DNA of 64,000 nt from an uncultured Bellilinea sp. (GTDB lineage Bacteria; Chloroflexota; Anaerolineae; Anaerolineales; Anaerolineaceae), in the NCBI GenBank assembly GCA_938040735.1, contig CALHYE010000007.1, positions 1-64,000 of the forward strand, read 5' to 3'. The notes under the pieces are model-generated. The model did not search any database. It saw only the letters and a list, made by a program, of their open reading frames with translations, and was not told where the DNA came from. The translations under genes were made by a program, and so were the position numbers. Of the stretch, positions 23,174 to 24,695 are shown one piece after another. The first letter of the stretch is position 1. Every line of letters begins with the position of its first letter.

Positions 23174-23641
23174 TCAATCCAATAATATACTTTTTTCTAA
23201 CTTCAACAAGAATAACTTTTTGTCAATCCCACCCCCATAGCCGACTAACTGACCATTTGACCCAATAACTCGGTGACACGGCACAATAATTGGGATTGGG
23301 TTTTGCCCATTAGCTCTGCCCACCGCCCGAATTGATTTTCCCTCTCCAATTCGTTCAGCCAGCTGTTTGTAGGATAGAGTCATTCCATACGGGATTTTGA
23401 GCAATTCCTGCCAAACCCTTAATTGAAACGGGCTGCCTTCGAGGTGAATCGGTAAATCGAAAGATTTTAATTCGCCGGCAAAGTAGGCCGCCAGTTGCTG
23501 CTGGGTTTCTTTGAAAATGGGTAAATCATTATTGCATTCAGGTGGCAATTCAAACGGGGAAAAGCACAACCCCCTCAAGAATTCCCCATCCGAGGATATC
23601 AACACTTCCCCTATCGGGCTTTCGATCACCGAAAAATACAT
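23174..23641 (-). CDS. ogt: Methylated-DNA--protein-cysteine methyltransferase
   Basis: 155 aa. The active-site PCHRVIG has the acceptor Cys at residue 122. The helix-turn-helix reads MTLSYKQLAERIGEGKSIRAVG with the arginine finger, and the short N-terminal domain opens MYFSVIESPIGEVLISS. It repairs O6-alkylguanine by moving the alkyl group to its Cys, used once per protein. The ATG at 23639-23641 marks the family's normal N-terminus; a longer in-frame reading to 23824 overlaps the next gene and is not supported. It may be co-transcribed with the sortase-like gene 46 bases upstream. Confidence 0.93.
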   Translation of the reverse strand: MYFSVIESPIGEVLISSDGEFLRGLCFSPFELPPECNNDLPIFKETQQQLAAYFAGELKSFDLPIHLEGSPFQLRVWQELLKIPYGMTLSYKQLAERIGEGKSIRAVGRANGQNPIPIIVPCHRVIGSNGQLVGYGGGIDKKLFLLKLEKSILLD

Positions 23642-23687: not shown

Positions 23688-24350
23688 TCAATTTTCCGGG
23701 ACGGCATAAATGAACAGCCGTCCCCAAGCCGGATCACCATCCCGCGAAATACAAGTCTGAAGGGTGAGATGCGCTTCTCCCATGTAAAATTTTGCAAATA
23801 ACTGCACCGTGTCAATCTCTTCACCCGTGGTGAGATCCTGGTATCTTAATCCTCCATCAACTTTGATCGCCTGATATGAATTGACCTCAACCACCTGATA
23901 TTTCATCGTCTTGCCATTTCCATCAATCAGAAAGACACCACTCCCCTTACTAATCTCGAAAAACAGCTTACCCGCCAGGTGATTATGAGCCAACAAGCCA
24001 AAAACCTCCGGAGTGGTCAACATAAATTGAGTAATTACATTTGGATCGTTAGATATATACTCATAATTCCCTTGCGGTTGTTGAATAACCGGTTTTGCCA
24101 GTAATTTTTCAACATACAATCCCGCAATTTGATTCCCGCCATTCTTAATCGTGTCCGCAAATTGGGTCAGCGAAGGAAAACTAATTTCCGGTTCAGAACT
24201 TGAAGAATTTGAGTTTCCATTGGTTAGGAGAGGCAGGAATACTTGATAGGTGCTGGCATCCGCCGATACAGGTTGAGGTTGAGAAAAACTCGCCAGCCCA
24301 ATTAACCAAAAACTCGTTAAGAATAGAGCAAAAATAACCGAGCGCCTCAT
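23688..24350 (-). CDS. Secreted sortase-fold protein under c-di-GMP riboswitch
   Basis: 220 aa. A signal peptide (1-30) is followed by TYQVFLPLL and a Ser/Asn linker. The rest looks like a small sortase domain: GLLAHNHLAG with the catalytic His (122 or 124), HLTLQTC with Cys200 in the TLxTC motif, and Arg211 in WGRLFIY. That is the full His-Cys-Arg set. No C-terminal anchor is seen, so it is released or held by an uncleaved signal. Known sortases cut sorting motifs or build pilins; a substrate with a sorting signal is not in this window. The ATG at 24348-24350 has AAAGGG upstream. A c-di-GMP-I riboswitch lies 108 bases before it. Confidence 0.75.
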   Translation of the reverse strand: MRRSVIFALFLTSFWLIGLASFSQPQPVSADASTYQVFLPLLTNGNSNSSSSEPEISFPSLTQFADTIKNGGNQIAGLYVEKLLAKPVIQQPQGNYEYISNDPNVITQFMLTTPEVFGLLAHNHLAGKLFFEISKGSGVFLIDGNGKTMKYQVVEVNSYQAIKVDGGLRYQDLTTGEEIDTVQLFAKFYMGEAHLTLQTCISRDGDPAWGRLFIYAVPEN

Positions 24351-24458
24351 GTCCAACCCTTTCTGACAAAGGCGCCCGGTAAAAACCGATCACAACCAAT
24401 TTAAATAAATACAGCAGGATTCCCCTGCCGGTAATTGGATGCATGGAATCGCGTTTTC

Positions 24459-24534
24459 GGCGGCCTGGCAGTCATAGGCTTTTAGCCCTTAGACCCATAG
24501 CTTTGCGTCGCCGGCTTTCGCCGGGTTTGCCTTT
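24459..24534 (-). promoter_or_regulatory. Cyclic di-GMP-I (GEMM) riboswitch
   Basis: The minus strand reads GGCAAACC, a stem closed by a GAAA tetraloop, then GACGCAAAGC, GGGTCTAA, a hairpin, and TATGACTGCCAGG. This matches the GEMM-I aptamer block by block: P2 with its GNRA loop, the conserved GACGCAAAGC junction that holds the ligand, and the tetraloop receptor in P3. The P1 arms are GGC and GCC at the ends. The 108-base stretch to the sortase-like start is the expression platform; small hairpins such as GCAGG/CCTGC (24414-24428) are present but no clear terminator. The rest of the non-coding stretch 24351-24695 (345 bases) shows nothing else. Confidence 0.93.
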
Positions 24535-24695
24535 GTCGTTACGGATTTAAATACGGTTCAAGATGGTTACCTGAATTGATAAGCCTGAAACCGCTTCTAT
24601 CCTAATCCAGGTGCTCTATATTATTTATAGGTCAAATTTATTAAAACTTTATAGACAAAACCTTTCAAACAACTTACAAACCAATCCCAACCGAT

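Follow-up and report, generated by a model that had tools for sequence, protein, structure and literature searches.

In Bellilinea-type Anaerolineaceae, a class I c-di-GMP riboswitch in the 5' leader probably controls the translation of a secreted sortase of the sortase_YLP family. The locus lies in a stretch of 64,000 nucleotides, hereafter the window, and was compared with a sample of 151 genomes (the window's own and 150 relatives) and with 14 control genomes; statements about whole genomes rest on searches of these genomes. The aptamer, the gene, the conservation of their pairing within the order and a covarying alternative helix are established at the level of sequence. Filamentous Anaerolineales are abundant in wastewater reactors and are found in hot-spring mats, and the riboswitch-sortase unit offers a testable handle on surface assembly in these organisms. 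It also ties the YLP box, a motif that curators have named but not explained, to a regulated enzyme.

The aptamer and the gene that it precedes

A first-pass annotation of this DNA had claimed a match to GEMM-I on the minus strand, and a covariance-model scan with RF01051 confirms it at full length:

24456..24541, minus strand: c-di-GMP-I (GEMM-I, RF01051) riboswitch aptamer (cmscan, 81.8 bits, E 1.5e-14)

The match runs end to end (1-87 of 87) and its score compares with a gathering score of 35 bits for RF01051; over the whole 64 kb window, cmscan placed no other Rfam family above its gathering score. The annotation had correctly located the aptamer on the minus strand before the gene, but the start that it gave (24534) falls short of the true one, which is 7 nt further upstream at 24541. 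Among 104 distinct related aptamers the helices covary, with 97.7% of cells paired and two-sided changes at 13 of the 19 pairs, a count reached by none of 500 shuffles in an alignment that was fitted to the structure and therefore leans towards it.

The features of the gene are as follows:

23688..24350, minus strand: secreted sortase, 220 aa, NCBIfam sortase_YLP (NF053836.1, 179.8 bits)
24357..24362, minus strand: Shine-Dalgarno AAAGGG, 6 nt before the ATG at 24350 (read from the sequence)
24261..24350, minus strand: putative signal peptide, residues 1-30 (inferred from the sequence; helix over residues 3-21 in the structural model)
24225..24248, minus strand: the sortase's own YLP box YQVFLPLL, residues 35-42, after the signal peptide (low-confidence and undocked in the model)
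23985..23987, minus strand: catalytic His122 (invariant, aligned with canonical sortases)
23751..23753, minus strand: catalytic Cys200, in TLQTC (invariant, aligned with canonical sortases)
23718..23720, minus strand: catalytic Arg211, in WGRLF (invariant, aligned with canonical sortases)

The reading frame opens at the ATG at 24350 and closes with the stop codon at 23688-23690. Its product is a sortase-fold member of the sortase_YLP family: NF053836 matches residues 35-219, well above the cut-off of 125 bits, and the complete His-Cys-Arg set of a secreted sortase, as previously proposed, is unchanged in two alignments of relatives, one of 24 and one of 56 sequences. The same three residues align with the His, Cys and Arg of two ordinary PF04203 sortases from the same genome. 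Structure prediction, which the annotation had suggested as a check on the sortase region, returned a sortase fold over residues 61-220 (AlphaFold, 56 sequences, pLDDT about 96). Foldseek matches this model to class C, E and A sortases (best E 1.3e-7), and VIA-align gives Z 13.3 to the SrtC structure 3re9 and Z 12.5 to Thermobifida fusca SrtE. With the family alignment as query, a profile search of PDB sequences found no match at E 0.1, whereas the fold search did. The Pfam sortase model PF04203 scores 22.8 bits, below its cut-off of 26.6; this sub-threshold score comes from a single library and is outweighed, because the fold, the catalytic residues and the NCBIfam model agree.

Upstream of the sortase lie trk-like and histidine kinase (HK) genes, and downstream lie ogt, fur, feoB and feoA. 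The ogt-type methyltransferase gene (23174-23640, minus strand) has the orientation of the sortase gene and begins about 50 nt past its stop codon; the two could share a transcript, and with it the riboswitch. Elsewhere in the genome, at C10:8379-9314 (L358), a canonical PF04203 sortase gene is convergent with a second sortase_YLP gene, which is of the IPITG type and has no riboswitch.

Conservation of the pairing of aptamer and sortase

The closest named relatives of the sortase are those of Bellilinea caldifistulae (72% identity) and of a Bellilinea metagenome-assembled genome (71%), and the whole neighbourhood is kept in both. In these relatives feoA, feoB, fur, HK, TrkA and opu stand at 80-91% identity as against 71-72% for the sortase, and ogt is lower still, at 42-50%. 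More widely, sortase_YLP is present in 73 of the 151 genomes and in none of the 14 controls, and one or two aptamers lie directly upstream of 26 of the 105 distinct sortase_YLP genes found in the 151. In the GTDB genome set, the 80 loci that best match the query include 57 in which an aptamer precedes the sortase, and 43 of those carry tandem pairs; the 57 of 80 is not a population rate, since a choice by best match favours close relatives. Mapped on a maximum-likelihood tree, the presence of the riboswitch requires 6 changes as against 23.4 with shuffled labels, and is thus clustered.

Seen from the side of the aptamer, sortases are the commonest class of target: of the 91 genes that come first after the RF01051 matches listed, 24 encode sortases. 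The remaining first genes, 62 of 67 of which were scanned, include 9 EAL proteins, 9 subtilases, 4 beta-helix proteins and 3 TadE-like proteins. The window's genome itself has a second aptamer (C16:5009-5087, plus strand, L002/L062; 65.7 bits), which precedes the gene of a secreted S8 subtilase that has PA and Fn3-like domains. B. caldifistulae (G002 C9) shares this pairing of aptamer and subtilase, and two further genomes (G013 and G148) seem from their sequences to share it too.

As far as the sequences indicate, then, the arrangement of aptamer and sortase is kept across the Anaerolineales, and its recurrence in the order suggests that c-di-GMP directly adjusts sortase production.

An alternative helix beside the Shine-Dalgarno sequence

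The leader between aptamer and gene offers a candidate route by which the ligand could act:

24529..24537, minus strand: aptamer 5' strand GACAAAGGC, which also pairs in an alternative (anti-aptamer) helix (leader pairing analysis)
24365..24373, minus strand: anti-aptamer site GCCTTTGTC, immediately upstream of the Shine-Dalgarno sequence (9 continuous base pairs with 24529-24537)
24412..24430, minus strand: GC-rich hairpin followed by TATTTATTTA, terminator-like (pattern scan, 2 matches as against 0.6 expected)

GCCTTTGTC (24373-24365) is the perfect complement of GACAAAGGC (24537-24529). In 23 of 58 loci the aptamer 5' strand can form 9 or more of 10 pairs with the leader, as against 1.05 loci expected by shuffling, and in nearly all of these 23 a gap of 8-16 nt separates the end of the site from the start codon. 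Two-sided changes occur at three pairs of the helix (C-G/U-A, A-U/G-C and G-C/A-U), and the strands of each locus fit one another better than swapped strands do: none of 20000 permutations did as well, and one of 20000 when only the 13 unique combinations were used. Being built from aptamer nucleotides, the helix cannot coexist with the ligand-bound fold. A covarying alternative helix thus explains how the ligand could reach the Shine-Dalgarno sequence and, since it lies beside that sequence, makes translational control of the sortase likely, whether on or off.

We picture the switch as follows. In the ligand-free RNA, GACAAAGGC would pair with GCCTTTGTC beside the Shine-Dalgarno sequence; c-di-GMP would hold the GACAAAGGC strand in the aptamer, so that the pyrimidine-rich GCCTTTGTC site is released, and this release would change the access of the ribosome, turning the gene on or off. 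Folding energies point both ways on the direction: forcing the aptamer to form leaves the Shine-Dalgarno sequence unpaired more often, whereas the stretch from that sequence to the AUG is costlier to open when the aptamer is formed, which is of opposite sign.

The helix is not universal, and a version of the model that would require it everywhere was rejected, as 35 of the 58 leaders lack it. Among these, 23 share CTGGATGCTC or a near form of it before the Shine-Dalgarno sequence. They come mostly from tandem-riboswitch loci (e.g., L282, L306 and L260) and carry GAGC directly after the aptamer. CTGGATGCTC together with GAGC is perhaps a second type of expression platform; these leaders say nothing on covariation, because the GAGC/GCTC pairing is nearly invariant.

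Other readings of the RNA concern the level at which the switch acts and the ligand to which it responds. Control could be transcriptional: the CGGCAGGGGAATCCTGCTG-TATTTATTTA hairpin (24430-24412) would act as an intrinsic terminator under the command of the aptamer, and the helix at the Shine-Dalgarno sequence would be secondary. The hairpin is a terminator-like match on the right strand of the leader and is identical or nearly so in three Bellilinea leaders, but its T-run is interrupted, it is not conserved outside the genus and was not seen in most other loci, and the anti-aptamer site that adjoins the Shine-Dalgarno sequence is conserved and covaries over several genera; we therefore regard a terminator as unlikely and retain translational control. 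Still less probable, in our estimation, is that in part of the riboswitch family the ligand is another cyclic dinucleotide such as 3',3'-cGAMP. This would accord with the A in 19 and the C in 12 of 105 sortase-locus aptamers at the position that we presume to be position 20 of Vc2, and with the several sortase-locus aptamers that score best as RF03167, the Rfam variant c-di-GMP-I-GGC. The window aptamer, however, scores as RF01051 and has G at the column that presumably corresponds to G20 of Vc2, and the window's genome encodes five GGDEF proteins. Since the window aptamer combines this G with an invariant 3' C, c-di-GMP fits as its ligand. Most of the 105 sortase-locus aptamers, 74 in all, likewise have G at this position (alignment column 12), and, given the A and C of the others and the matches to RF03167, a change of ligand within tandem pairs is possible.

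The YLP box and candidate substrates

What the sortase acts on is the less certain part of the model. The first-pass annotation had noted the absence of substrate or pilin genes, and this is correct for the neighbourhood, with its trk-like/HK, ogt, fur, feoB and feoA genes, but not for the genome. The search for proteins with sorting signals and for other riboswitches that it had recommended yielded, besides the one second aptamer, two secreted proteins that end in a YLP box, with 0 residues after the match. Both were recognized by NF050076 (sort_motif_YLP), an 11-residue NCBIfam model described as a "YLP-box putative sorting motif" with a cut-off of 15 bits. The one, of 415 aa (C19), ends in ...VRQVYLPMVRR (16.5 bits) and appears CAP-like on a reading of its sequence; the other, of 359 aa (C26), ends in ...SKIFLPLVRR (15.4 bits). 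The annotation's main proposal, that c-di-GMP directly sets the sortase, accordingly keeps its footing in a true GEMM-I aptamer in cis, kept across the order and joined to a covarying helix, and loses its image of an enzyme without candidate substrates; the role in attachment or biofilm that the annotation drew from it would be speculative.

Proteins of relatives carry the box in one of two positions: at their extreme C-terminus, as ...YLPLVRR and typically 2 residues short of the end, or towards the N-terminus, where it seems to follow directly on a signal peptide. One genome (G150) encodes a YLP-tailed protein of 1450 aa that has its own riboswitch and is convergent with the riboswitch-sortase, a similar facing riboswitch is found in SKYB29 (G116), and in Thermanaerothrix (G037) a large YLP-box protein adjoins the riboswitch-sortase and is convergent with it. 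YLP boxes number 2.9-7.4 per Mb where the sortase has an N-terminal YLP box, as against a median of 0.77 (p = 2.5e-5, uncorrected for kinship). The NF050076 model is noisy and exceeds its cut-off in 2 of the 14 control genomes too. A strict one-to-one pairing of box and enzyme was rejected, as either is found without the other: many genomes have YLP boxes and no sortase_YLP (including G095, G096, G103, G121 and G147), and others have sortase_YLP and no YLP box (G098, G111, G123, G135 and G146).

Further signals were seen in these proteins. Nearly half of the sortase_YLP family (e.g., L110, L017, L036 and L113) carries after the signal peptide an LPxTG-like pentapeptide, mostly IPVTG, in the place of the window protein's YLP box. 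We set aside the idea that such an N-terminal YLP or IPVTG stretch docks in the sortase's own active site as a pseudosubstrate: in the AlphaFold model the stretch is undocked, at pLDDT about 50, and since other secreted proteins have YLP boxes in the corresponding position, a general tag is the more probable reading. Some riboswitch-preceded secreted proteins (L159, L076 and L154, in G150 C4/C8 and G116 C63) end in a membrane segment and a basic tail (e.g., RRRRK). This ending is a C-terminal sorting signal of another kind than the YLP box, and in two of these proteins it follows FGPTAxxLK.

The sortase may alternatively be an ordinary one with LPxTG-like substrates, the YLP box being an unrelated tag for surface retention or secretion that the sortase also carries. 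To this reading, which bears on the substrate step alone and does not conflict with control by the riboswitch, we give somewhat less than an even chance. It draws on the IPVTG-like motif that replaces YLP in nearly half of the family, on the abundance of YLP boxes in genomes without sortase_YLP, and on the YLP tails themselves, which have neither the transmembrane segment nor the basic end of classical sorting signals. Yet the NCBIfam curators link sortase_YLP and the YLP box by name, YLP-box proteins stand beside the sortase in Thermanaerothrix and G150, YLP-tailed proteins are under riboswitch control in G150 and G116, and the box is denser where the sortase has one. Should the YLP box be a substrate signal after all, the sortase might cleave or transfer secreted YLP-box proteins, such as the two C-terminally tagged ones of this genome, and by way of their processing c-di-GMP would tune the make-up of the cell surface. 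In its broadest form, which we put forward tentatively and consider rather doubtful as a whole, the model would have c-di-GMP gate an entire sorting pathway of the Anaerolineales at the RNA level. Tandem or single class I riboswitches would act on the sorting enzyme, partly via the anti-aptamer helix beside the Shine-Dalgarno sequence, and in some lineages also on YLP-tailed substrates. The YLP box would represent a novel kind of sortase signal, one that forms the end of the protein, lacks a membrane segment and is also borne by the sortase.

Comparison with known systems

Taken singly, both components are already known, the aptamer as a typical RF01051 riboswitch and the enzyme through a family that curators have defined. 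In open-licence PMC papers we found no report that joins sortase with YLP, none that joins Anaerolineae with c-di-GMP and riboswitch, and none of the c-di-GMP-riboswitch-sortase unit, its tandem form or its covarying anti-aptamer platform; a paper on tandem riboswitches (PMC12452182) names neither sortase nor Anaerolineae. In NCBIfam (release 20, 2026) the window protein is a member of NF053836 sortase_YLP and both its own YLP box and the tailed proteins resemble the NF050076 sort_motif_YLP family; the scan output gives family names and no regulation, and the coupling to a riboswitch was found here. With the class C and E sortases (3re9, Streptococcus suis SrtC1; 9m6n, T. fusca SrtE) the window sortase shares its fold over about 118 residues and the conserved His/Cys/Arg set, but it is only 18% identical and differs in its N-terminus.

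As to regulation, the c-di-GMP riboswitch Bc2 of Bacillus thuringiensis precedes a collagen adhesin (PMC4933901), and so lies, like the window aptamer, in the leader of a surface gene, though its target is an adhesin and the target here a sorting enzyme. Closer still is Clostridioides difficile, in which, according to PMC6200980 (and Peltier 2015, which it cites), class II c-di-GMP riboswitches control the sortase-dependent adhesins CD2831 and CD3246 and a class I riboswitch controls the protease ZmpI/PPEP-1. There as here, c-di-GMP riboswitches would bear on which sortase-dependent proteins stand at the surface; the system described here belongs to another phylum and often has tandem class I aptamers. 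Whereas the known links between c-di-GMP and sortases, as described for C. difficile, act either on the substrates or on a substrate-cleaving protease, in the Anaerolineales it is the gene for the sorting enzyme itself that appears to be the target of the riboswitch.
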